Assembly (NCBI GenBank): GCA_001281695.1
Contig: LJIE01000001.1
Coordinates: 316,107 to 380,106, forward strand
Reading direction: 5' to 3'
Length of the DNA: 64,000 nucleotides
Source: a bacterium 336/3
GTDB lineage: Bacteria > Bacteroidota > Bacteroidia > Cytophagales > Thermonemataceae
Made by a program: the position numbers and the translations under genes. Numbering within the stretch: the stretch's first letter is position 1; each line of letters begins with the position of its first letter. A model generated the notes under the pieces. That model saw nothing but the letters and a program-made list of their open reading frames with translations. It had not been told where the DNA came from and did not search any database. Below, one piece after another: positions 4,251-55,350 of the stretch.

Positions 4251-5180
4251 TTAAGGTTTAAGACCATTAATATATAAAAGACCCATTATACTCACTTGAA
4301 ACTTCGAATATATATCAGATGGATAAAAAAGAAGTTCTTCTATTGAAAAAGTCTGTTTAGATTCTTTTAATAAATCAAAATCTTGAAAAAATATTTGCCC
4401 TTTGGTTTCTATCTCTGGTGAATTTGCAGATATTCTTAATAATAGGGAATCTTTATTTTGTTCTAAAGAATAATGTAAAATAATAGGTTTTTTGGAAGAA
4501 ATTGGAGGTAACTTATCTTTTTCTTCTAAAATGTAGAAATTAATGTATTGTTGCTTTCTTAAGCTAAAATTAGATTGGATGGATGACAATGTACTTAAAA
4601 ATAATTTTTTAAGGTGTGTAAAATACCTAACATTATTTGTTTTATTATGTATTCTAATAATGATTTCATTAAAGGTGTCTAAAGAGTCAGTATCAAGAGT
4701 ATTTTTTTGCTGAGGGTTTTTTAGTGGTATTCTACTTATACTTGATGAAGCTATAATTGTATAGATCATGTTAAATATGCTTTTTTGCCTTTCTTTGTTA
4801 TAAGAAAGCATAAAAGAAATAGAACCATATTCATAGGGTGGTATTTTAGGAGAGGAACTCTCAAAAATTCTATACTTGAAACCCATGTGATTTTGGTTAT
4901 ATAAAACAGTATCAAAGATTACTACTTGCCAATGATAATCAGGTTGGGCTACTAATGAATCAATGATAATATCCCCTTTTCTACCTTGATTTGCAGCAAT
5001 AAGATAAATTCGATTGATTAAACTATCACTAATAATTTTTTTGGTATCTTTCTCTGAATAATCTTTAAAAAAAGCACTTTTCTGATGACCCAAAACCTCT
5101 AATTGTATTTTTTGTGAAAAAGATACATTTGATTGTATAAAGAAGAAAAAAAGTAAAAAACAATATGGTCTTAAAATCAT
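4251..5180 (-). CDS. Secreted protein of unknown function
   Basis: 309 aa beginning with an uncharged leader (MILRPYCFLLFFFFIQSNVSFSQ) that ends in a plausible signal peptidase I site. The mature part is hydrophilic, with scattered serines and aromatics, and no motif I recognise; the residues GHQKSAFFKDY and a later stretch around IHNKTNNVRYF stand out only as charged surface-like segments. It starts 15 bases after the stop of hemH and so is likely the last gene of the usp - antiporter - hemH unit. Whether it has anything to do with haem is unknown. It may be a lineage-specific periplasmic or outer-membrane-associated protein. Confidence 0.65.
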   Translation of the reverse strand: MILRPYCFLLFFFFIQSNVSFSQKIQLEVLGHQKSAFFKDYSEKDTKKIISDSLINRIYLIAANQGRKGDIIIDSLVAQPDYHWQVVIFDTVLYNQNHMGFKYRIFESSSPKIPPYEYGSISFMLSYNKERQKSIFNMIYTIIASSSISRIPLKNPQQKNTLDTDSLDTFNEIIIRIHNKTNNVRYFTHLKKLFLSTLSSIQSNFSLRKQQYINFYILEEKDKLPPISSKKPIILHYSLEQNKDSLLLRISANSPEIETKGQIFFQDFDLLKESKQTFSIEELLFYPSDIYSKFQVSIMGLLYINGLKP

Positions 5181-43860: not shown

Positions 43861-46033
43861 AAGAGTTGTTTGTACTTGAAATTTGCATGTTATTATTTTT
43901 TGTTTGAGATGGTGTAGCTAAAGGTAAAGTGAATTTTGCAATAGTGCCTTTACCCAATGTACTTTCTATATAAAAATTTCCACCACTTTCCTGAATAGAG
44001 TCTCGACACAAGACGAGTCCCAATCCAATGCCTTTTTCTAATTGTGTTCCTTTAGTGGTCAGACTTATTCCATTTTGTATTTTTTTCAAATCTTCAGGAG
44101 AAATACCTACTCCCATGTCTATAACAGAAACCTCACAGAATTTATCCACTCGAACTACTTTTACCCAAATTTTTCCACCAATTTTGGTAAATTTAATAGC
44201 ATTAGTTAATAAGTTTCTTAAAGCTATCTCAAAAACATTTTTATCAGCATTGATAATTAAATTATCTGAAATATCCATCTCAATGGATATTTTTTTGTTA
44301 TTAGAAAACCAACCAACTTCAAAAATAGTTTCAACAACTATTTCTTTTACATAATGATTTTCTATTTTCAACTTTTGTCCTTCAAGTTGTGATTTTGCCC
44401 AAAGTAATAAATTATCCATTAAATCGGATGTGTATTCTGTATTTTTAGATAGTTCTTCAGTAATAGTATCTAAATCCTTTTTATCAAGATTCTGATTTCG
44501 TATTAAATAAACGAAACCCTTTAGGCTACTCATATAGCCTCTTAAGTCATGAGATACCACAGAAAAAACCTTGCTTTTAAAATTATTTACATATTCTAAA
44601 TTTTTAATATATTTTTTTCTAAGATTAAAATAAGTAAACATGTAAATACCTCCTATAATACTGATGAATGCAATCATAGAAGTGGTAAAAATAATAACTC
44701 TTTGGTTAAAAAGCTCTTTTTCTTTGCTTTTTGCTTGTTGCCTAAGCAAGTTATTTTCTACTTCTTGCTCTTTAAATTTATAGAATCCTTCTATTTCAGA
44801 AATTTTACCTCTATTGAAAATAGTATTTAAACTGTCAGTAATTTCTTGATATTTTTTTTGATAGATGAATGCTTTAGGATAATCTTGAATGTTTTCAAAA
44901 GCTTGTACGTATGTATTATAAAGTTTTTTTTGGTATTCTAAATAAGCAATTTGATTGGTTCTATAAATTTTTGTTTCATGTTGTTTTAAGTATGCTTCAC
45001 CCAAACTAAGCATTTTAAGAGCTTCTTGTACTTTTTGTTGTTTATAGTTTACAATAGCCAGTTTTGTATAAGCAGCCACTACAATACCATGTTCTCCAAA
45101 TTTAAAACCAGATTCCAAGTAATTATTAAGATACGTTTTGGCTTGTTCATACTTATTTTGCTCAATAAAAATTTCTGCCATATTGCCTTGTGGAATTCCT
45201 ATCCAAACAGAGTCTTTTATTTCTTTAGCCATATCTATAGCTAAAGAAAAATGTTTTAAAGCATTGTTGTAATCTTTTAAAGCTTTATAGGCTAAACCTA
45301 CATCATTTTTCAGACCTATGACTGTTCTAATTTTGGGTAATAATTTCTCACTTGTATTCAGACCAGCAGACCAATGCTTTAGAGCCATTGCATAATTCTT
45401 AGTTTGGTAAAAAATTAAACCAATATTTTTTTGTAGGTTTATCCAAGCGAATCCATTTAAACGAGAATATTTATTGTATAACTCTTCCGCTTCTAAAATT
45501 TCTTTCAAAGCCAAATCGTTTTTACCTTGTTTCAATAAAATGAGGTGATTAATTTCATGAACTACATAAGCATATTGATAGCAATTTTGTTGCTTGATAA
45601 ATAACTTTGTATCTTCTAAATAATCTATATTAGATTTAAAATTAGCACTATTAAATTTGCCTAATGCCATTCTTGAAGCAATAAATGCCTCAAAACAAGG
45701 CTCTTTTGATGAACGAATCAATTGAAAAGCTTTCTCTCTTAAAGATGCTTGTTGAGAAGCATTTTCATTAGAGCATTCTTTTGCCTTTAATATTAGAATG
45801 ATAGCAGAAGTGATTTTTAAATTTTCGTCTGTGCCTATTAAATTTTCTAATTGTTCTAAATAATCACATTTTTGGGAAGTAAAACCTAAAGATTGCTCTA
45901 TAAGATGATGTTGTAATACGTAATCATTGGTAGATTTTAGATTTTGATATATATTCTCTGCACTATATACTTGAGTATATCCTTTTGCATAAAGTAGCAT
46001 TAAAAATACCAAAGCAATCAAAAATCTTATCAT
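43838..46033 (-). CDS. TPR-containing histidine kinase
   Basis: 731 aa with a signal peptide ending TQV. Residues about 30-425 form several TPR-type helical repeats (NIGLIFYQTKNYAMALKHW, GLAYKALKDYNNALKHF, MAEIFIEQNKYEQAKTY) on the periplasmic side. A coiled coil and a membrane helix (about 445-470) follow. The HisKA has His495 in SVVSHDLRG; HATPase has NADKNVFEIALRNLLTNAIKF, DMGVGISPEDL and GIGLGLVLC. The sensor domain has no ligand motif. It is coupled to the CheY-like receiver and is divergent from the PP2C regulator, 195 bases away. Confidence 0.93.
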   Translation of the reverse strand: MIRFLIALVFLMLLYAKGYTQVYSAENIYQNLKSTNDYVLQHHLIEQSLGFTSQKCDYLEQLENLIGTDENLKITSAIILILKAKECSNENASQQASLREKAFQLIRSSKEPCFEAFIASRMALGKFNSANFKSNIDYLEDTKLFIKQQNCYQYAYVVHEINHLILLKQGKNDLALKEILEAEELYNKYSRLNGFAWINLQKNIGLIFYQTKNYAMALKHWSAGLNTSEKLLPKIRTVIGLKNDVGLAYKALKDYNNALKHFSLAIDMAKEIKDSVWIGIPQGNMAEIFIEQNKYEQAKTYLNNYLESGFKFGEHGIVVAAYTKLAIVNYKQQKVQEALKMLSLGEAYLKQHETKIYRTNQIAYLEYQKKLYNTYVQAFENIQDYPKAFIYQKKYQEITDSLNTIFNRGKISEIEGFYKFKEQEVENNLLRQQAKSKEKELFNQRVIIFTTSMIAFISIIGGIYMFTYFNLRKKYIKNLEYVNNFKSKVFSVVSHDLRGYMSSLKGFVYLIRNQNLDKKDLDTITEELSKNTEYTSDLMDNLLLWAKSQLEGQKLKIENHYVKEIVVETIFEVGWFSNNKKISIEMDISDNLIINADKNVFEIALRNLLTNAIKFTKIGGKIWVKVVRVDKFCEVSVIDMGVGISPEDLKKIQNGISLTTKGTQLEKGIGLGLVLCRDSIQESGGNFYIESTLGKGTIAKFTLPLATPSQTKNNNMQISSTNNSYENSISR

Positions 46034-46161
46034 TTTAATTAAGTTATTTTGTAATAAATATATGCATTAAATAAAAAGTATTAAACTAAACTCAACAAAT
46101 ATTTTCATATTTTAAGTTTGGAAAAATCTTATATTTAATCGAGAAAAACTAATGTTTCACC

Positions 46162-46200
46162 GTCTTTTAAAAGACTATTAAAAATATATATATAAATTTG
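46162..46200 (+). promoter_or_regulatory. Palindrome and -7 element before the PP2C regulator
   Basis: A perfect 14-bp palindrome GTCTTTTAAAAGAC at 46162-46175 is followed by TAAATTTG at 46193-46200 (full -7 match). The start codon is 29 bases further on. No TTG at the expected spacing; the palindrome covers that place, which would suit a regulator binding there. Confidence 0.35.
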
Positions 46201-46228
46201 TGTTAAATAGCAAAAAATAATTAATTCT

Positions 46229-47458
46229 ATGAGCATTGATTTCACTCCCAATATTTTATATATCGATGATGAAGAGTCCAATTTAAGGATATTCAAGATT
46301 AACTTTAAAAGACACTATAATGTTTTTGTTACTACTGAGATTAAGGAAGCAAGAGAAATATTAGAAAAAAATAATATTCACCTGATCATTACAGACCAAA
46401 AAATGCCTGAAATGACAGGCACAGAGTTTTTAAAGTCTGTATTACCATATTATCCAGATGTAATACGGATTGTCTTAACAGGGTTCTCCGATATTCAAGA
46501 TTTAATACAAGCTGTTAATGAATGCTCTATTCATCAGTATATGACAAAACCTTATGATAATGGGGAGATGAAATTGACATTGGATAAAGCTCTTGAATCC
46601 TTTAAATTACAAAACGATAATAAAGATTTAGTAAAGCAACTTCAAAAGGCAAATGAGGAGTTGGAAGCTAAAGTAATAGAAAGAACTAATCAATTAATGC
46701 TGACCAATATACGAATTACAGATAGTATTAGGTATGCTCGTAAGATACAAAGAAGTATTCTTTCAACAGAACAAGATTTCTCTAAATATTTTCAAGATAA
46801 TTTTTCTTTATATCAACCTAAAGATATAGTGGGAGGAGATTTTTACGCATCTTTCGATAAAGATGATAGAATTATTGTTGCAGCAGGAGATTGTACAGGA
46901 CATGGTGTGCCTGGTGCTTTGATGAGTATTTTAGGAAGTTCTTTGTTACATTCTATTATTGATTATAAAGATGAGTATTCAACAGATAATATTTTAAATT
47001 CTTTACGCTCAGGGGTTATAAGAACTCTCAAGCAAGATGATAATGATAACAAAGATGGCATGGAAATAGGAATTATTGCCTATCATCCAAATAGTCAAAT
47101 ATTAGAGTTTACTTCATCAAGGTTAAATCTTCTTTATTTTTATAATGGTGAAATGTTTGAGTTGAAAGGAGATAGAAGAAGCATAGGTGGTGCTGATGAT
47201 ACAGACCATGTTTTTGCAAAGCAAGAGATTAAGGTTGAACCAAATACTTATTTTTATATGTTTTCAGATGGGTTACAAGACCAGTTTGGTGGAGCTGAAA
47301 AAAAGAGACTAGGTTCAAGGAAATTAAAGGAAATACTTTTTCAAATTCATCAAAAACCTTTTCATGAACAAAAAGATTTTTTAGAAAATTTTATCAAAGA
47401 TTGGATAGCTGATGACCATCAAATAGATGATATTATGGTTCTTGGATTTAAAGTATAA
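46229..47458 (+). CDS. Response regulator with SpoIIE-type PP2C phosphatase output
   Basis: 409 aa. The receiver (1-130) has Asp56 in ITDQKMPE and Lys in MTKPYD. A coiled coil (about 135-175) links to a SpoIIE/PP2C domain with DIVGGDFYA, GDCTGHGVPGALMS, MFSDGLQDQFGG and DDHQIDDIMVLG; the metal-binding Asp residues are all present. The protein should dephosphorylate Ser/Thr-phosphorylated partners, classically STAS-type anti-anti-sigma factors. Immediately downstream are two STAS/SEC14-like genes, 73 bases away and beyond a terminator. This suggests a partner-switch-like arrangement, but the STAS-like proteins lack a clear phosphoacceptor Ser. Confidence 0.92.
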   Translation: MSIDFTPNILYIDDEESNLRIFKINFKRHYNVFVTTEIKEAREILEKNNIHLIITDQKMPEMTGTEFLKSVLPYYPDVIRIVLTGFSDIQDLIQAVNECSIHQYMTKPYDNGEMKLTLDKALESFKLQNDNKDLVKQLQKANEELEAKVIERTNQLMLTNIRITDSIRYARKIQRSILSTEQDFSKYFQDNFSLYQPKDIVGGDFYASFDKDDRIIVAAGDCTGHGVPGALMSILGSSLLHSIIDYKDEYSTDNILNSLRSGVIRTLKQDDNDNKDGMEIGIIAYHPNSQILEFTSSRLNLLYFYNGEMFELKGDRRSIGGADDTDHVFAKQEIKVEPNTYFYMFSDGLQDQFGGAEKKRLGSRKLKEILFQIHQKPFHEQKDFLENFIKDWIADDHQIDDIMVLGFKV

Positions 47459-47460
47459 AA

Positions 47461-47490
47461 AAAGGTTTTCAGATGAAAACCTTTTTTTAT
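47461..47490 (+). terminator. Terminator of the PP2C regulator gene
   Basis: 10-bp stem AAAGGTTTTC/GAAAACCTTT (47461-47470, 47475-47484) with an AGAT loop and then TTTTATTTT. Confidence 0.82.
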
Positions 47491-47531
47491 TTTGATAGTT
47501 AAGTATTTATTTACTTTTAACTCCCAAAATT

Positions 47532-47966
47532 ATGAACATTATCGCTCAAAATGAGGTATTATTTGATGATCAATACCTCACACTCTATTATGACCCAGCC
47601 ATTTCTTGTATTGTAAAAGAATGGAAACAAGCTGTCCCAGAAAATAAGTTTAGAGAGTTGATTATTCACCTTTTAATGAAAATAGTTCAGACTCGAACTA
47701 AATACAAAAATCCAGTAAACTTAATAGCTGACTGCAGAAAATTGGGAGGAGATACATTTACCCAAGAAGTGATAGATTGGCTAAATGCTGAAGTCCATAA
47801 GTTATATGCGATGAATAAAATCAGTAAAAAAGCTTTTGTTGCCTCTAAAGATATTACAGCCAATCTTTCTATCGTGAATTATATTAGTTCTAGTAATACC
47901 ATTGAAAACTTCACAATGACTATTTTTGATGATATAGAAGAAGCTAAAAGTTGGGCTAAAGTATAA
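47532..47966 (+). CDS. STAS/SEC14-like protein, copy 1
   Basis: 144 aa. The order of strands and helices and the phrases LTLYYDPAISCIVKEWKQAV, NLIADCRKL, ... AKSWAKV match STAS/SEC14 (SpoIIAA-like) proteins of Bacteroidota, in which a strand-turn-strand core ends in a helix with 'EEAK.W'. The core lacks the DSSG motif of phosphorylated anti-anti-sigma factors. Copy 2 follows 22 bases later and shares 34 identical residues in a row at the C-terminal part. Both lie downstream of a SpoIIE-type phosphatase gene. Binding partner and function are unknown. Confidence 0.75.
   Translation: MNIIAQNEVLFDDQYLTLYYDPAISCIVKEWKQAVPENKFRELIIHLLMKIVQTRTKYKNPVNLIADCRKLGGDTFTQEVIDWLNAEVHKLYAMNKISKKAFVASKDITANLSIVNYISSSNTIENFTMTIFDDIEEAKSWAKV
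47811..47954 (+). repeat. Duplicated coding block shared with 48277-48420
   Basis: The 3' part of copy 1 matches copy 2 at 48277-48420. Two blocks are identical base for base: 47811-47869 with 48277-48335 (59 bases) and 47913-47954 with 48379-48420 (42 bases). In between, most differences are silent. The 5' parts of the genes differ much more. Confidence 0.9.
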
Positions 47967-47988
47967 AATTAGATAAACAATAAAATAT

Positions 47989-48432
47989 ATGGAACAAAAA
48001 CAAGCTATGAGTGAAAGGGAAGTACTGTATGATGATGAATACCTTACACTCTATTATGATTCGTCTATTTCTACTATTGTAAAAGAATGGAAACAAGCCG
48101 TTTCTGAAAATAAGTTTAGAAGTTTAATTATTGAATTGGTTATGAAAATCGTTCAAATAAGAATAAAATATAAGAAACCTATAAACTTAATAGCTGATTG
48201 TAGAAAATTAGATGGCAATACTTTTACACCACAAGTAATAGACTGGCTCAATACAGAAATTCATAAGCTCTATGCCATGAATAAAATCAGTAAAAAAGCT
48301 TTTGTTGCCTCTAAAGATATTACAGCCAATCTTTCCATTGTAAACTATATTAGCTCAAGCAATACCATTGCAGACTTTACAATGACTATTTTTGATGATA
48401 TAGAAGAAGCTAAAAGTTGGATTAAAGCATAA
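47989..48432 (+). CDS. STAS/SEC14-like protein, copy 2
   Basis: 147 aa. It has the same fold as copy 1 with LTLYYDSSISTIVKEWKQAV, NLIADCRKLDGNTF and the C-terminal EEAKSWIKA. Differences from copy 1 are concentrated in residues 1-90 (for example NTFTPQV in place of DTFTQEV). The run LYAMNKISKKAFVASK and the residues that follow are identical in both copies. The start could also be at 48007 (MSERE). It ends with a very strong terminator, so the two copies form a transcript of their own. Confidence 0.75.
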   Translation: MEQKQAMSEREVLYDDEYLTLYYDSSISTIVKEWKQAVSENKFRSLIIELVMKIVQIRIKYKKPINLIADCRKLDGNTFTPQVIDWLNTEIHKLYAMNKISKKAFVASKDITANLSIVNYISSSNTIADFTMTIFDDIEEAKSWIKA

Positions 48433-48435
48433 TAA

Positions 48436-48471
48436 AAAAAGTCTTCTAAAACTATTTTAGAAGACTTTTTT
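48436..48471 (+). terminator. Strong terminator after the STAS-like pair
   Basis: 16-bp stem (48436-48451 with 48455-48470) with a 3-base loop, ending in a T run. Confidence 0.88.
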
Positions 48472-48548
48472 ATCGGCCTACACATCCATTTCATCGAGCA
48501 AAAAAACAATTCTACCGAAAACCAAGCAGAATCTATTTAAAATAAATA

Positions 48549-48556
48549 TATATTTG
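48549..48556 (+). promoter_or_regulatory. Candidate -7 element for the 76-aa gene
   Basis: TATATTTG, full match to TAnnTTTG, 18 to 24 bases before the candidate start codons. No TTG at the expected spacing. Confidence 0.3.
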
Positions 48557-48574
48557 TTTTGTACTTAAATATCT

Positions 48575-48805
48575 ATGCATATGAAAATAGTAGTTATAAA
48601 AAAATGGTGTGATGATAATATTACTCCATTAGCTTGGCAAAGAATAGTAATGAAAAATTTAGATGCCCTCAAAAATACAGGTTTAAACATTACTGAGCTT
48701 TCTAATCCTACTGATGCTATGGAACTTAATGATGTACTTGTTAGCTTGGTAAAAGAATCTATTAAAGAGGTTTATCAAATAGAGATACCTGTACATGCTC
48801 TATAA
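48575..48805 (+). CDS. 76-aa protein, single copy of an unrecognised WNPW domain
   Basis: 76 aa; ATGs at 48575 and 48581 are both possible. Almost the whole protein is one domain: IKKWCDDNITPLAWQRIVMKNL, with Trp11, Asn15, Pro18 and Trp21, then an acidic middle and a helix-like end. The same spacing W-x3-N-x2-P-x2-W occurs twice in the protein at 54814-55350. Length and composition suggest a helical protein-protein contact domain. No family is recognised. It stands between the STAS-like pair and the giant kinase, after a terminator. Confidence 0.62.
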   Translation: MHMKIVVIKKWCDDNITPLAWQRIVMKNLDALKNTGLNITELSNPTDAMELNDVLVSLVKESIKEVYQIEIPVHAL

Positions 48806-49268
48806 AAAATCATAATAATCTATTTTTGTCCAAATTTTGAAAAAATCTTATACAACAATCTTTGCAAAAGGTATTGGTGAAAACTATTATGGGTACTAGT
48901 TTTTATATGGTAAATAGTTTTAATTAATTAAAAAGTGTTGATAACTGAGAAGCTATAAAGCCTAATTCAAAACTATAACAAAAAAACATATCAATTACAG
49001 ATTATCGACAGAACACTTTGCTCATTTTGAGCAGATACTCATTTATATGTTTAAAAACTTTTTAAAGAGTAGTCAGAATACTGAATTAAAAAATGCTTGA
49101 AAAGTTATATATCAAAATGTTTCAGAAGTAATGATAGAAGTTATTTTTATGAAGGACTAAATTATTAGAACTCTATAAAATTATAGGTAAAGACATTTTT
49201 ATATGGCGATTTATTCAAAATATAAAAATGTATTTTGTTTTTTGTCAAAATTTAAAATCAATAGCAGT
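48806..49268. other. 463-base region without a supported gene
   Basis: Very AT-rich. It has an inverted repeat AAAACTATT/AATAGTTTT (48880-48888, 48913-48921) with a 24-base loop, and GCTCATTTTGAGC at 49020-49032. Neither is followed by a T tract. No protein frame with a plausible start is seen apart from an unlikely N-terminal extension of the next gene. It probably holds the promoter for the operon that starts at 49269. Confidence 0.5.
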
Positions 49269-49640
49269 ATGAAGTCAAAATTGTTAACACTTGTATGTAT
49301 TTTTGTAGGGCATTTTATATATGCTCAGGACGCCAAACCCAAAGCTGTAGCTTGGAGTGGCCAATTTGTAGTAGCAACTAATGGAAACTCTTTATTTACA
49401 AATTTTGGAGGACCCAGTATCAAAGCAGAGTTTTCTAAAAAATCATCTCTTTCTCTTGGGATGTTACCTTCGCTCAGAATTAATTTAGAAGAAAAAGATA
49501 GTAATAAGATTGTTTCTCCTATTTTAGGAATAGGTTTGCAATTTCAATATAAAAAATTTATATTGGCAATGCCAGCTTATTACTTGCCAGGTCCTAAAAA
49601 TTACTGGACATTAGCAGGTGGCATAGGAATCAAACTTTAA
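49269..49640 (+). CDS. Small secreted barrel-like protein
   Basis: 123 aa from the ATG at 49269, which gives a full signal peptide (MKSKLLTLVCIFVGHFIYAQ). An ATG at 49203 is in frame but would place 22 unlikely residues in front. The mature part is rich in aromatics and Gly with alternating pattern (SFSLGMLPSLRINL-like, LGIGLQFQYKKFILAMPAYYL, GGIGIKL at the end), fitting a small outer-membrane barrel or a periplasmic strand protein. No named family. It lies 26 bases upstream of the giant kinase and probably shares its transcript, so it may help sensing. Confidence 0.65.
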   Translation: MKSKLLTLVCIFVGHFIYAQDAKPKAVAWSGQFVVATNGNSLFTNFGGPSIKAEFSKKSSLSLGMLPSLRINLEEKDSNKIVSPILGIGLQFQYKKFILAMPAYYLPGPKNYWTLAGGIGIKL

Positions 49641-49666
49641 ATAACATCATATAAAAGCACTAAAAA

Positions 49667-52600
49667 ATGAAACGCTTTAAAACTACATACATTGTTGCTC
49701 TGCTCGTAATTGCAGTTTTCGTAATTATTGGAGAGTTGGCTGTTCAGCTAGGTTTGACAACTTTAGCAGATGATGCTCGTGTAATTAATATCTCTGGTAG
49801 ACAAAGAATGTTGAGTCAAAGGATTACAAAGAGTGCTTTAATTATGGGGCAAACATCTAGTCTAGAGGTATTTCAGACTAGAAAGCGAGAATTAACAGAG
49901 GCCCTCAATAATTGGAAAAAATCTCATGAAGCTTTACAAAAAGGTGATGTAGTTTTGGGAATAAAAACCCCGCCTAATAGTCAAGAAATTCTTGGAAAAT
50001 ATGCTGAAGTACAACCTATATTTGACCAAATGAAGGAAGCAGCATCTAAGATATCTGTACTTGATTTCAATACATTAGATAGCATAGGTCGTGTAGAAAT
50101 GAATGCTAATATTGAAATAATCTTAAATAACGAGGTTAAATTTTTACCTCTTATGGATGGTATTACAAACTTATATACACAAGATTCTAAAGGTAGGTCT
50201 AATACTGTAGGTTTAATTACATGGGGCGTAGGTATTACTATTGTAGGTATAATCGTTTTATTAGCTATCTTCTTTTTTGAGCCTGTAGTGAAGAAAATGA
50301 ATGTATACTTAGAAGAAATTGGAAAACAGACTAAAAAACTAGAACAATCAGAATTAGAAATGCGTGAAATTGCTGAAAAGCAGTTGGAAGCTAATGAGCA
50401 ATTGTTTTTAGCTCAAAGGCAGATGCAACAAAAAAATGTACAGTTGGAAACTTCTGATCAAGAAACAAAACGTCTATTAGAAGAGCAAGAAAAAGCTAAT
50501 CAGAAGCTTGCTGTTGCTCAAAGAGAGCTTCAAAAGAACTTAGTTGAGCAAAATAGAGCTAACCAAAAACTTACAGAAGCTCAAAAAGAAATTGAACAAT
50601 CTGAGAGGCAAATGAGAGCATTGGCAGAAGCTCAATTAGAAGCAAATGAACAATTGTTAGTAGCCCAAAAACAAATTCAAGAACAAACTCAAAAAATGAA
50701 ACAAGCTTTTGTAATTGCTAAATCAGGAGCTTGGAGTATGGAATCGAATATAGATGGTACAGATGCGATGCTTACTTTTTCAGATGAGTATTATGCTCTT
50801 TTGGGTACAACAGCAGAAGAACAAGGTGGTTATAGAATGTCTATTCAGGCTTGGACAGAGAAGTTTTTAGTGCCTGAAGATGCTCCTGATGTTTTAGCTC
50901 AGTTTGTTGATGTCTTGAAAAATGAAGAATTTAACTTGGTAAGTGAGTTTAGGCTTAAAAAAGTGAATGGGGATATTATTAATTATCAAACGAACTTAAA
51001 AACTAAACATTATCCACTACAAGAGAAAATAAGAGGAGAGGGAATAGCTCAAGATATCACAGAACGTAAGCAACTTGAAGAAGAAAGAGAACAAAGAAAT
51101 AAAGAGTTAAAAGAAGCATTTAAAATAGCGAAAATGGCTTCTTGGAGAATTGAGTCAGAAGGAACAGATACACCACTCGATAAAATTGTATGCTACTTCT
51201 CAGATGAATATTATGATCTTTTGGGAACAACAGCAACAGAACAAGGGGGATATAGGACTTCTTTTAAAGACTGGATTGAAAATTATCTACACCCTAAAAG
51301 TGTTCCCAATATTATGATTTCTATTGAACAAATGGCTTTTGTAACTGAAGCAGAGTCAGATATAGAATATCAATTAGTACGTACAAATGACAAGCAAATA
51401 GTTGATATACAAACAAGTATAGCACTCAAGACATTGCCAAATGGTAATAGAGTTATTACAGGTACAGCTCAGGATGTTACTGAACGTAAAAAAGCGGAAT
51501 TAGAAAAACAATCTCGCCAAGAGAAAATACAAAGATATAATCAACTTTTAACAAAGCTTTCAGTAACTCCTTACGAAGAATATGGTTCTTTGGATAATGC
51601 TATGCAAGCTATTACAGAAGCTATTGCCAATGGATTGGAAATAGATAGAGCAAGCATTTGGGATTATACAGGTAGTAGCATTATTAGCCACAATTTATAC
51701 GAAAAAAGTAAAGATAATCACTCTAAAGGTGTAGAATTATTTGATAAAGATTTTCCTGCATATTTTGATGCTGTGAAGAATGGGTTAGTAATTAATGCTT
51801 CAAATGCTCATACACATCCTAATACTGCTGAATTTTCCGATATTTATTTAACACCATTGGGAATTAATTCTATGTTAGATGTTCCTATTAGGGTTGGTGG
51901 TGAACTTGCAGGGGTAATTTGTTGTGAATATGTAGGTTCTGATTACAGAGATTGGACTTCAGAAGATGAAACTTTTGCTCGTGGTATAGCTGATATTGTT
52001 TCATTGACCATAGAAGCTGATAAACGCCAACAAGCACAAAAGGAACTTGCTGAAGCTCTTGATAATCAAAAAATTATTAATGAAAGCTTGACGCTTGCTC
52101 AAAAAGAACTATCTCGTCGTTCAGAAGAGCTGGAACGTTCAGAAAAAGAAATGCGTACTTTGGCTGAAGCTCAAATTGAAGCCAATGAGCAACTTTTATT
52201 TGCTCAGAAACAATTGCAAGCAACAACAGCTCTTCAGAAAGGTATTTTGGAAGGAGCAACAGTAGCAATTATATCTACTACCACAGATGGAATAATTACT
52301 TCTATCAATCCTACAGCACTAAGGTGGCTACAATATACAGAGGATGAGCTAGTTCATAAACAAAGTCCTGCAATTTTTCATGATATAAGTGAGGTGGTAG
52401 AAATGGCAGAAGTACTGAGTAGGAAACACAATGATAATATTGAACCTGGATTTGGGGTATTTATCTATGAAACTCAAAAAGGAATCACGAATTCATACGA
52501 ATATACTTATAACCGTAAAGATGGAACTAAATTTCTTATATCACTTACAGTTTCTGCTATTAAAGACGAAAAAGGTAATATTACAGGATATTTAGGTATA

Positions 52601-54760
52601 GTAGAGGATATTACAGAACGTAAAAAAGCTGAGCAAGAGCTATTAATCTCAACACAACGTTATCAAAATGTAGTTGAAGGTGCAGAAATCATTACTTATT
52701 CTTTGGATAAGAATGGAGTATTTACTTTATCTGAAGGAAAAATTTTAGCAAAATTAGGTTTAAAACCTGGGCAAGTTGTTGGTTTAAATATTCGAGAGCT
52801 TTATAAAGACGCTCCAGAAATTATAGAATTTAATGATAGAGCTCTTGCTGGTGAAGCTGTTCAGTATGAAACAGAAGTGGCAGGTCTTATCTTTTATAAT
52901 CAAGTTACACCTGTAAAAGATGTACAAAATGAAGTGGTAGGTGTTGTAGGTGTTGTTACAGATATTACAGAACGTAAGAAAGCAGAACAGCTCATCCAAG
53001 AGCAAACTCAAAAAATGAAACAAGCCTTTTTAATTGCTAAATCAGGAGTTTGGGGTATAGAGGCTAACTTAGATGGTAGTGATGCAAAACTTATTTTAAC
53101 AGATGAATATTATACACTTTTGGGTACAACAGTAGAACAAGAAGGAGGTTATGTATTGCCATTTGAAATTTGGGCAAATAAATTTGTAGTTTCAGAAGAC
53201 TTACCTTATTTAATGTCTTTATTAGAAGGTGTAATAAAAAATGATGAATATTCTCTTAATGCTGAACTTAAACTGAGAAAAATTAATGGTGAAATTATAA
53301 ATTATTATACAAGTATTAATACTAAAATTGATAAAATAAAGCAAAAAGTTAAAGGAGATGGAATAGCACAAGATATTACAGAACGTAAAAAGGCGGAAGA
53401 AGAAGTAAAACGTTTATCATTAGTAGCATCTAAAACAGATAATGCAGTTATCATTACAAATGGTGATGGTTTGATAGAATGGGTAAATGATGCCTTTGTT
53501 GAACTTACAGAATATACTTTTGATGAGGTAAAAGGTAGAAAACCTGGGTCATTTTTACAAGGACCTGAAACAAATCCTGAGGATATAGAAGGTATTCGCA
53601 AAAAGCTTAATAGTAAGATGCCTTTTTATCATGAAATTTATAATTATTCAAAATCTGGTATTGGCTATTGGTTATCACTCAATGTTACACCAATTTTAAA
53701 TGATAATGGTGGTGTTGAGCAATTCATTGCCATCGAATCGGACATCAGTGATCGTAAAGAAACAGAGAAAGAGTTGCAAAAAACTTTTGAACGTATTAAG
53801 AAATCTGAAGAAGAAATGCGTTTATTGGCAGAAGCTCAATTGGAAGCCAACGAAAGATTGATGATGGCTGAAATGAGCTTGAAGAAAACATTGGAACAAG
53901 AGCAACAGCAAAAATCGGAACTTGATAAACTAGTTGGACAGCTCAAAGAAACACAAACCCAACTCGTACATAATGAAAAAATGGCTTCGTTGGGACAACT
54001 TACAGCAGGTATTGCTCATGAAATTAATAACCCTATCAATTTTGTGTATAATGGTATTGATACACTAAAGATTTCATTGGATGATTTGATGGAGATTGTA
54101 AATAAATACAATGAACTTGATAAAGCTAATGGAAATAAAGAAGAAATAATAGAGGAAGCAAAACAACTAAAAAATAGCTTAGATTTTGAAGAACTCACTC
54201 AAGATATAGAGCATTTGGTTTCTGATATTAAGAAAGGGGCTGTTCGGACTATGGAAATTGTGAAAGGTTTACGAGTATTTAGCCGTTTAGATGAAGAAGA
54301 ACGTAAAATGGCAAATATTAAAGATTGCTTAGACTCCACAATTATCCTTTTGAATAACAAAATAAAAGGTAGAGTAGAACTCAAAAGATATTATGACGAA
54401 TCGATGCCAGATATTTTATGTTACCCAGGACAGTTGAACCAAGTATTTATGAATATCATCAATAATGCTATCCAAGCTGTTCCAGAAGATAGAAAAGATG
54501 GCGTTCTTGAAATTTATACAGAGAATCTACAAGAAAATATTGTAATTCGTATCAAAGACAATGGTTCAGGTATGAGTGAACAAGTGAAACGTAGAATATT
54601 TGAGCCATTTTTTACTACAAAAGCAGTAGGAGTTGGAACAGGTTTGGGTTTATCTATTACATTTGGTATTATTGAAAAACATAATGGAAATATCTTTGTA
54701 AATAGTGAAGAAGGACGAGGAACAGAGTTTGTTATACAATTGCCTAAAGCTTCACTTTAA
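49667..54760 (+). CDS. 1697-aa hybrid-sensor histidine kinase: PilJ-type input, six PAS, GAF
   Basis: Membrane helix near 10-30; PilJ/NarX-like input domain (about 31-175) with VINISGRQRMLSQRITKSAL; second helix about 180-203; coiled coils at about 205-343. PAS1 344-465, PAS2 481-608, GAF 622-787, PAS3 855-987, PAS4 998-1106, PAS5 1116-1243, PAS6 1247-1366. PAS1, PAS2 and PAS5 are close copies, and DNA at 50687 and 53002 is nearly the same. PAS6 is LOV-like but has Pro/Gly where the flavin Cys would be. Heptad phrases like EANEQLLVAQKQ recur four times. HisKA has His1451 in AHEINNP; HATPase covers about 1570-1695 with GLGLSITFGI. There is no receiver domain, so the partner is elsewhere. It sits in the operon with the WNPW and V4R-like genes. 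Confidence 0.92.
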   Translation: MKRFKTTYIVALLVIAVFVIIGELAVQLGLTTLADDARVINISGRQRMLSQRITKSALIMGQTSSLEVFQTRKRELTEALNNWKKSHEALQKGDVVLGIKTPPNSQEILGKYAEVQPIFDQMKEAASKISVLDFNTLDSIGRVEMNANIEIILNNEVKFLPLMDGITNLYTQDSKGRSNTVGLITWGVGITIVGIIVLLAIFFFEPVVKKMNVYLEEIGKQTKKLEQSELEMREIAEKQLEANEQLFLAQRQMQQKNVQLETSDQETKRLLEEQEKANQKLAVAQRELQKNLVEQNRANQKLTEAQKEIEQSERQMRALAEAQLEANEQLLVAQKQIQEQTQKMKQAFVIAKSGAWSMESNIDGTDAMLTFSDEYYALLGTTAEEQGGYRMSIQAWTEKFLVPEDAPDVLAQFVDVLKNEEFNLVSEFRLKKVNGDIINYQTNLKTKHYPLQEKIRGEGIAQDITERKQLEEEREQRNKELKEAFKIAKMASWRIESEGTDTPLDKIVCYFSDEYYDLLGTTATEQGGYRTSFKDWIENYLHPKSVPNIMISIEQMAFVTEAESDIEYQLVRTNDKQIVDIQTSIALKTLPNGNRVITGTAQDVTERKKAELEKQSRQEKIQRYNQLLTKLSVTPYEEYGSLDNAMQAITEAIANGLEIDRASIWDYTGSSIISHNLYEKSKDNHSKGVELFDKDFPAYFDAVKNGLVINASNAHTHPNTAEFSDIYLTPLGINSMLDVPIRVGGELAGVICCEYVGSDYRDWTSEDETFARGIADIVSLTIEADKRQQAQKELAEALDNQKIINESLTLAQKELSRRSEELERSEKEMRTLAEAQIEANEQLLFAQKQLQATTALQKGILEGATVAIISTTTDGIITSINPTALRWLQYTEDELVHKQSPAIFHDISEVVEMAEVLSRKHNDNIEPGFGVFIYETQKGITNSYEYTYNRKDGTKFLISLTVSAIKDEKGNITGYLGIVEDITERKKAEQELLISTQRYQNVVEGAEIITYSLDKNGVFTLSEGKILAKLGLKPGQVVGLNIRELYKDAPEIIEFNDRALAGEAVQYETEVAGLIFYNQVTPVKDVQNEVVGVVGVVTDITERKKAEQLIQEQTQKMKQAFLIAKSGVWGIEANLDGSDAKLILTDEYYTLLGTTVEQEGGYVLPFEIWANKFVVSEDLPYLMSLLEGVIKNDEYSLNAELKLRKINGEIINYYTSINTKIDKIKQKVKGDGIAQDITERKKAEEEVKRLSLVASKTDNAVIITNGDGLIEWVNDAFVELTEYTFDEVKGRKPGSFLQGPETNPEDIEGIRKKLNSKMPFYHEIYNYSKSGIGYWLSLNVTPILNDNGGVEQFIAIESDISDRKETEKELQKTFERIKKSEEEMRLLAEAQLEANERLMMAEMSLKKTLEQEQQQKSELDKLVGQLKETQTQLVHNEKMASLGQLTAGIAHEINNPINFVYNGIDTLKISLDDLMEIVNKYNELDKANGNKEEIIEEAKQLKNSLDFEELTQDIEHLVSDIKKGAVRTMEIVKGLRVFSRLDEEERKMANIKDCLDSTIILLNNKIKGRVELKRYYDESMPDILCYPGQLNQVFMNIINNAIQAVPEDRKDGVLEIYTENLQENIVIRIKDNGSGMSEQVKRRIFEPFFTTKAVGVGTGLGLSITFGIIEKHNGNIFVNSEEGRGTEFVIQLPKASL

Positions 54761-54813: not shown

Positions 54814-55350
54814 ATGGAAATAGTGTCAGTAAAATCAGTCAAAGATTGGGCTAGGGACAACTGTCCTCCTTTATCGTGGCAGAGAGTAGTCTTTAGAGTG
54901 CTCCCGAAACTTAATCAAAAAGGTGTTTTTTTACATTTCTTTGAAAAAGACGATTATTTAATTCAAGAAGATGTATTGGCCATCATTAATACAGGTTTTG
55001 AAGAAATATTCAAGAAAAAATATGTTTATGTTACAAAAGAGGATTCTTCAACAATCAAAAACTCTTTTGAAACAAAAATAGATGAAACTTCTAAATCTGT
55101 CCAAAATAATACCTCTGATCAAAATTTTGTAGATACTCCTGTTAAAGAAGTGAAAGCTTGGGTTTTAAAAAACTGTTCGCCAACAGCTTGGAATACAGTC
55201 ATTATGAGTATGTTGCCAAAAATGAGAGAATTTAATATGACTTGGAGAAATCTAGAGGATGATACTTTTATTCTTGATAATAAAGTATTACAAGAAATTC
55301 AAAACATTACAGTTAAGATATACAATAAAACTTTAAACATCACGAAATAA
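54814..55350 (+). CDS. Protein with two WNPW domains
   Basis: 178 aa. Copy B is about residues 7-73 (VKDWARDNCPPLSWQRVVF, with Trp12, Asn16, Pro19, Trp22); a Ser/Thr/Asn-rich linker of about 35 residues follows; copy C is about 109-176 (VKAWVLKNCSPTAWNTVIM, with Trp116, Asn120, Pro123, Trp126). Each copy then has an acidic middle and a helix ending near a hydrophobic VYV or LNI. The linker looks flexible. The gene follows the giant kinase by 53 bases, and its stop overlaps the next start (TAATG), so translation is coupled. No catalytic residues visible. Confidence 0.68.
   Translation: MEIVSVKSVKDWARDNCPPLSWQRVVFRVLPKLNQKGVFLHFFEKDDYLIQEDVLAIINTGFEEIFKKKYVYVTKEDSSTIKNSFETKIDETSKSVQNNTSDQNFVDTPVKEVKAWVLKNCSPTAWNTVIMSMLPKMREFNMTWRNLEDDTFILDNKVLQEIQNITVKIYNKTLNITK
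54832..55341 (+). repeat. Two diverged copies of the WNPW domain
   Basis: Copy B is 54832-55032 and copy C 55138-55341. A third copy is in the separate protein at 48587-48787. Each copy is about 67 residues, and all keep W-x3-N-x2-P-x2-W, a Lys or Val-Lys before the first Trp, and a hydrophobic [VI]M or VF after the second Trp. Identity between copies is low, so the duplications are old. Confidence 0.7.

Follow-up and report, generated by a model that had tools for sequence, protein, structure and literature searches.

A tandem pair of SpoIIAA/STAS-like genes

The window, the whole 64,000-nucleotide stretch of DNA that we analyzed, contains two adjacent genes for small SpoIIAA/STAS-like proteins, arranged head to tail with a gap of 22 bp. 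As the preliminary description had it, a gene for a SpoIIE-type phosphatase stands just upstream (46229..47458). This gene also encodes a REC domain. The features of the locus are:

46229..47458, + strand: REC and SpoIIE-type (PPM) phosphatase, 409 aa (Pfam PF00072 and PF07228)
47455..47490, + strand: predicted terminator-like hairpin between phosphatase and pair, -16 kcal/mol, z -5.5, with a T run; missed by the consensus scan
47532..47966, + strand: STAS copy 1, 144 aa, SpoIIAA/STAS-like, assigned through its homology to copy 2 and to relatives
47811..47869, + strand: identical block 1 in copy 1, 59 nt; end of helix 2, strand 4 and start of helix 3
47870..47912, + strand: inter-block stretch; 10 nucleotide differences, with 13 of 15 residues unchanged and silent divergence at saturation
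47913..47954, + strand: identical block 2 in copy 1, 42 nt; last strand and last helix
47989..48432, + strand: STAS copy 2, 147 aa, Pfam SpoIIAA-like (PF11964)
48277..48335, + strand: identical block 1 in copy 2, 59 nt, exact
48379..48420, + strand: identical block 2 in copy 2, 42 nt, exact
48435..48471, + strand: predicted terminator-like hairpin 3′ of copy 2, -17.3 kcal/mol, z -7.2; found by the consensus scan on the minus strand only
48575..48805, + strand: 76-aa ORF with no Pfam family; homologues adjoin the phosphatase orthologue in genome G004
49667..54760, + strand: PilJ/PAS/GAF/HATPase histidine kinase, 1697 aa

The gap-free alignment of the two copies has a constant 466-nt offset. Over the 140 codons in register, their amino-acid identity is 81%, pS is 0.51 and pN is 0.106. 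The tandem ORFs with exact blocks of 59 and 42 bp in the preliminary description are present just as reported. Its remark that the other changes are mostly silent holds between the blocks (47870..47912), where 8 of the 10 nucleotide differences are silent, while its account of the 5′ halves as diverged is a matter of degree, as protein identity there is still 71%. The third-longest identical run of the pair, 24 nt, lies in the 5′ half (47609-47632). Copies 1 and 2 are the only members of their close group in the genome (the third match has an E value of 0.45). With up to three mismatches allowed, the 59-mer has no further copy in the 4.7-Mb genome beyond the two block sites; as it is present only twice, we rejected a dispersed repeat element. 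The two genes are tandem paralogues that form a mosaic of silent divergence.

Protein fold and gene neighborhood

Copy 2 matched Pfam PF11964 (SpoIIAA-like) with 26.3 bits, 1.3 bits above the gathering cut-off of 25. Copy 1 matched no Pfam family above the cut-off, and PF11964 was not listed up to an E value of 10; being 81% identical to copy 2, copy 1 may be regarded as a borderline case of this family. An AlphaFold2 model made from three sequences (mean pLDDT 67.5) has the order bbb-a-b-a-b-a-b-a. VIA-align gave Z 9.7 over 109 residues (rmsd 3.0) to 4xs5, a STAS structure, and Z 8.8 over 114 residues (rmsd 3.4) to 2q3l; STAS and CRAL-TRIO chains scored Z 8-9.7, values that are suggestive only. 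The best Foldseek matches were to SiaC, weak at an E value of 0.014, with none at E ≤ 0.001, and a sequence search of solved structures returned one chance-level match (E 0.2). From the model, we predict with moderate confidence that the pair's proteins have a SpoIIAA/STAS-like fold. The name STAS/SEC14-like, used before, was a fair one, given the PF11964 match of copy 2 and the modeled SpoIIAA-like order of strands and helices.

In the modeled fold, strand 4 and its flanks lie in block 1, and block 2 takes in strand 5 and the last helix. With the site assigned by topology, all 7 close members have a Ser or Thr where helix 2 begins, as do 28 of 56 members of the wider family. We take this position to be the one that is phosphorylated in SpoIIAA. 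Shewanella SpoIIAA-like proteins resemble CRAL-TRIO lipid carriers (PMC2954212). The window's proteins share the strand-helix order of the Shewanella PF11964 proteins 2q3l and 2ook as given there, with copy 2 just above the family cut-off. Unlike those proteins, copy 1 falls below it.

With predicted hairpins both 5′ and 3′ of it, the pair most likely forms a separate transcription unit. We judged cotranscription of the phosphatase with the pair to be unlikely, since one of these hairpins is predicted to lie between them; the pair is probably transcribed apart from its upstream neighbor. The C-terminal part of the phosphatase resembles the NCBIfam SiaA-like family, below cut-off. The genome as a whole (G000) has 22 matches to the SpoIIE-type phosphatase at E ≤ 1e-20 and its relatives have 14-28, some of them to the receiver domain only.

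An orthologue of the phosphatase is present in all eight genomes of the family. A homologue of the kinase adjoins it in three relatives (G004, G005 and G006) and lies one gene away in a fourth (G007), while the two homologues are apart in G001-G003. Counting the window, where the STAS pair lies between them (46229-54760), kinase and phosphatase are neighbors or near-neighbors in 5 of 8 family genomes (L061, L062, L066 and L067). As judged from gene order, the REC-SpoIIE phosphatase and the PilJ/PAS kinase form a recurring module in the family.

In G004, a STAS gene lies directly 5′ of the kinase gene, which extends almost to the end of a contig; at another contig end, a gene like the kinase's C-terminal part is followed by the phosphatase. 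This order suggests a STAS-kinase-phosphatase cluster across the unjoined contig ends, and given it we dropped the reading that the phosphatase is never adjacent to STAS in relatives. Kinase, phosphatase and STAS gene share a neighborhood in 2 of the 5 STAS-bearing genomes, where the G004 case is taken across the contig break. In G001, the STAS gene and the phosphatase are about 18 kb apart, and an intact STAS orthologue is missing from G002, G003 and G006, which do have the phosphatase. The 76-aa protein has two copies by the phosphatase in G004 (L062, 4275-4505 and 4646-4885), one of which is also similar to the final part of a 178-aa protein of the window (54814-55350).

Like the SiaA/SiaB/SiaC/SiaD and SpoIIE/SpoIIAA switches, the locus has a SpoIIE-type phosphatase adjoining a predicted SpoIIAA-fold protein, for which SiaC was the top, though weak, Foldseek match. 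Unlike SiaC and SpoIIAA, the window's STAS proteins have no family-level sequence match to either. The locus also differs from these partner switches in its phosphatase, which has a receiver domain. No small HATPase kinase of the SpoIIAB/RsbW/SiaB type was found among the Pfam-scanned neighbors of the pair, and a PAS/HATPase kinase lies downstream. For a link between the phosphatase and the pair, the clustering of kinase, phosphatase and STAS gene in two genomes is indirect support. A candidate pathway from the kinase through the REC-phosphatase to STAS is plausible. More tentatively, the two STAS-fold proteins probably function as a pair, either as switches or in ligand binding, and they may act downstream of the neighboring kinase and REC-phosphatase.

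Silent divergence along the pair and in controls

Since shared amino acids and codon usage both favor identical DNA, we conditioned our tests on the amino acids and codon usage of the window. Codons for the same residue in both copies were identical in 81 of 114 cases. In block 1, all 19 were identical, against 10.2 expected if silent sites were saturated, and in block 2, all 14, against 8.5, or 33 of 33 for the blocks combined. Outside the blocks, 48 of 81 were identical, compared to 42.4 expected at saturation, with 5 of 12 (5.5 expected) between the blocks. Comparing silent divergence along the genes, as had been proposed, thus reveals near saturation outside the blocks and complete identity inside them. 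The identity of the blocks exceeds what amino-acid identity and codon usage give. As silent sites outside the blocks are near saturation, a recent duplication of the whole gene is ruled out and the duplication must be old.

Under a single level of silent divergence, a longest run of at least 59 nt arose in 0.25-0.4% of simulations, and both runs jointly in 0 of 4000 simulations and in 0.013% of 8000 in a second run; with the shared-ancestry parameter set to its upper 95% limit (0.532), the joint figure was 0.175%. A uniform nucleotide shuffle gave p = 0.0003 and a simpler, weaker codon permutation gave p = 0.016 for the longest stretch of codons free of silent differences, all of these values being somewhat optimistic because the pair was chosen for its pattern. 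Compared to a one-state model, a two-state model gave 2dLL 27 and recovered strong tracts at 47814-47867 and 47913-47954, together with four further short tracts of low support. Within the 144-nt stretch that holds both blocks, all 10 differences fall in the middle 43 nt (p about 6e-5). Even decay after one large, recent conversion would not give this distribution, and we rejected that scenario.

Purifying selection on the protein, combined with local codon choice and a chance clustering of silent changes, might produce such blocks with no exchange between the copies. The blocks do contain structurally important, family-wide residues (F132, A138, W141 and A101 in copy-1 numbering), and at the upper shared-ancestry limit the 59-nt run appeared in 2.9% of simulations. 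However, both runs jointly appeared in only 0.013-0.175%, and the inter-block stretch keeps 13 of its 15 residues yet is silently saturated. Protein constraint accounts for the similar residues; it is insufficient for silent identity that switches sharply on and off along the pair, whereas short conversion tracts fit.

Cross-correction of short reads from both copies could also have made the blocks alike during assembly or consensus calling, and tandem copies 466 nt apart are a setting where this can occur. However, the copies lie inside a 4.1-Mb contig, with clean differences up to the block edges, and such an artefact would need complete correction in two patches and none in the intervening 43 nt. 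We regard it as very unlikely.

As controls, we cut orthologous genes of related genomes to 140-codon windows and applied the same test to the resulting 39 windows. In the 17 with silent divergence like that of the pair (from G007 and G006), the longest run was 32 nt. Three of the 39 windows reached p < 0.01 when their two longest runs were taken together: an open-ended ORF whose alignment spans a poorly matching stretch, a window in which the genes are very similar, and the second of the STAS genes in G118 and G142. Uneven silent divergence among ordinary orthologues is thus uncommon but occurs, a point in favor of an origin without exchange. In the G118/G142 case (L053 2152-2586 and L054 2058-2492), the runs were 83 and 71 nt, and silent divergence was far lower in the 3′ half of these STAS orthologues and not so in the neighboring paralogue.

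A comparable mosaic was absent from ten other, non-orthologous tandem pairs of the wider family within the order, which are more diverged than the window's pair (identity 21-74%, longest runs 8-27 nt). These pairs are the matches at hand, a non-exhaustive set in which G118 and G142 contribute the same pair in two species. For the tandem pair of G052 (C44), p was 0.0115 for the longest run and the second run was not significant. The ten pairs evolve independently along their length. Most have diverged too far to recombine, and as evidence on conversion in the window's pair they are neutral. Across the order, diverged SpoIIAA-like genes often stand in tandem, as pairs or triplets (L051, L053, L054, L055, L056, L038, L022, L028 and L021).

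Orthologues and the origin of the mosaic

A close orthologue is present in 5 of the 8 family genomes, the window's genome included. Two copies are found in the window's genome only; the others have one orthologue or none. No relative with an orthologous pair was found among the 8 family genomes and 148 genomes of the order. In a tree of seven proteins, copies 1 and 2 join with support 0.87, although conversion itself draws copies together. In G006, a STAS remnant with three stops (L043, about 4362-4496) has the same neighbors as the intact G007 gene, indicating that the gene is dispensable in that lineage.

We compared the pair with five single-copy orthologues, four from the family (G001, G004, G005 and G007) and one from elsewhere in the order (G065). 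Codons for Met and Trp were omitted, and the expectation was taken from each genome's codon usage. Within the blocks, 43 of 77 same-residue cases were identical to the window, with 43.3 expected. Outside them, the counts were 95 of 212 for copy 1 (90.6 expected) and 97 of 209 for copy 2 (94.6 expected). Aligned with homologues, the block codons are thus no better conserved than codon usage predicts, and deep nucleotide constraint is not supported. The preliminary description had left the choice between gene conversion and strong constraint; conversion is favored, while strong constraint fits poorly with orthologue codons that sit at expectation.

The proteins gave a similar picture. Orthologues matched 16-19 of 32-33 residues in the blocks (48-58%) and 32-52% outside, with 1 of 10 comparisons with the window copies reaching p just < 0.05, whereas the pair itself is identical at 33 of 33 residues in the blocks and at 81 of 104 outside (p 0.001). 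That orthologues are scarcely more conserved inside the blocks than outside also weighs against selection and codon choice with no exchange, an explanation we consider unlikely.

The complete silent identity of both blocks might instead reflect a nucleotide element peculiar to this lineage, such as an RNA structure or a regulatory or recombination site, in both coding sequences. The occurrence of the pair in one lineage only is compatible with this. Yet RNA structure in the blocks did not rise above that of shuffles (z +0.4 to +1.1), no Rfam family was found within 46000-50000, the genome has no extra copy of the 59-mer, and codons are not conserved in the five orthologues. Such an element is most improbable.

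We favor, with a probability of roughly 0.7, an old tandem duplication of a single-copy STAS gene followed by at least two short conversion tracts. A single-copy STAS/SpoIIAA-like gene would have been duplicated in tandem long ago in the lineage. Homologous recombination between the copies would later have replaced sequence in the 3′ part of one copy with that of the other, in no fewer than two short, non-reciprocal exchanges of about 60 and 40 bp. In the rest of the genes, silent sites would have drifted to near saturation while purifying selection kept the proteins similar. We infer the recombination itself, as well as its direction, date and number of events, from the pattern in the sequence. 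The evidence comes from one genome, in which the exchange is seen indirectly. Tracts of 40-60 bp are short for recombination at about 80% identity between copies, which counts against conversion.

A stronger version of the conversion reading, which we hold to be quite unlikely, is that recurrent short-tract conversion preserves the identity of a C-terminal face, made up of strand 4/helix 3 and strand 5/helix 4, in two STAS-fold proteins that otherwise diverge. The reason would be that both proteins need to bind one shared partner in a pathway of histidine kinase, REC-SpoIIE phosphatase and STAS, while their N-terminal halves specialize.

Conversion between tandem duplicates is well known, and the window probably offers an unusually clear example of this ordinary process. 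In methanogens, gene conversion homogenized a whole domain of the tandem mtrA-1/mtrA-2 genes in many species, with orthologous pairs and GENECONV support (PMC4632066). Our pair resembles that one in being adjacent prokaryotic paralogues with one part homogenized and another divergent, and differs in having two patches of 40-60 bp in one genome. Between paralogues of M. tuberculosis, conversion tracts have a median of 101 bp (IQR 33-244), according to a preprint (PMC13061034). Short tracts between paralogues are common to both cases; those of M. tuberculosis were seen directly among 151 isolates, whereas ours would be read from a single genome. Among titles and the openings of abstracts of open-license papers on SpoIIAA-like proteins, conversion and partner switching, we found no description of this locus.

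If the conversion reading is correct, the pair would be a neat, small-scale instance of gene conversion in bacterial tandem duplicates. A single genome would suffice to read it, owing to the sharp contrast between protein constraint and silent drift. For pairs of this kind, gene trees and dN/dS would then be mixed along the genes. The neighborhood of the pair points to the combination of kinase, REC-phosphatase and STAS as a candidate signaling pathway in the family.
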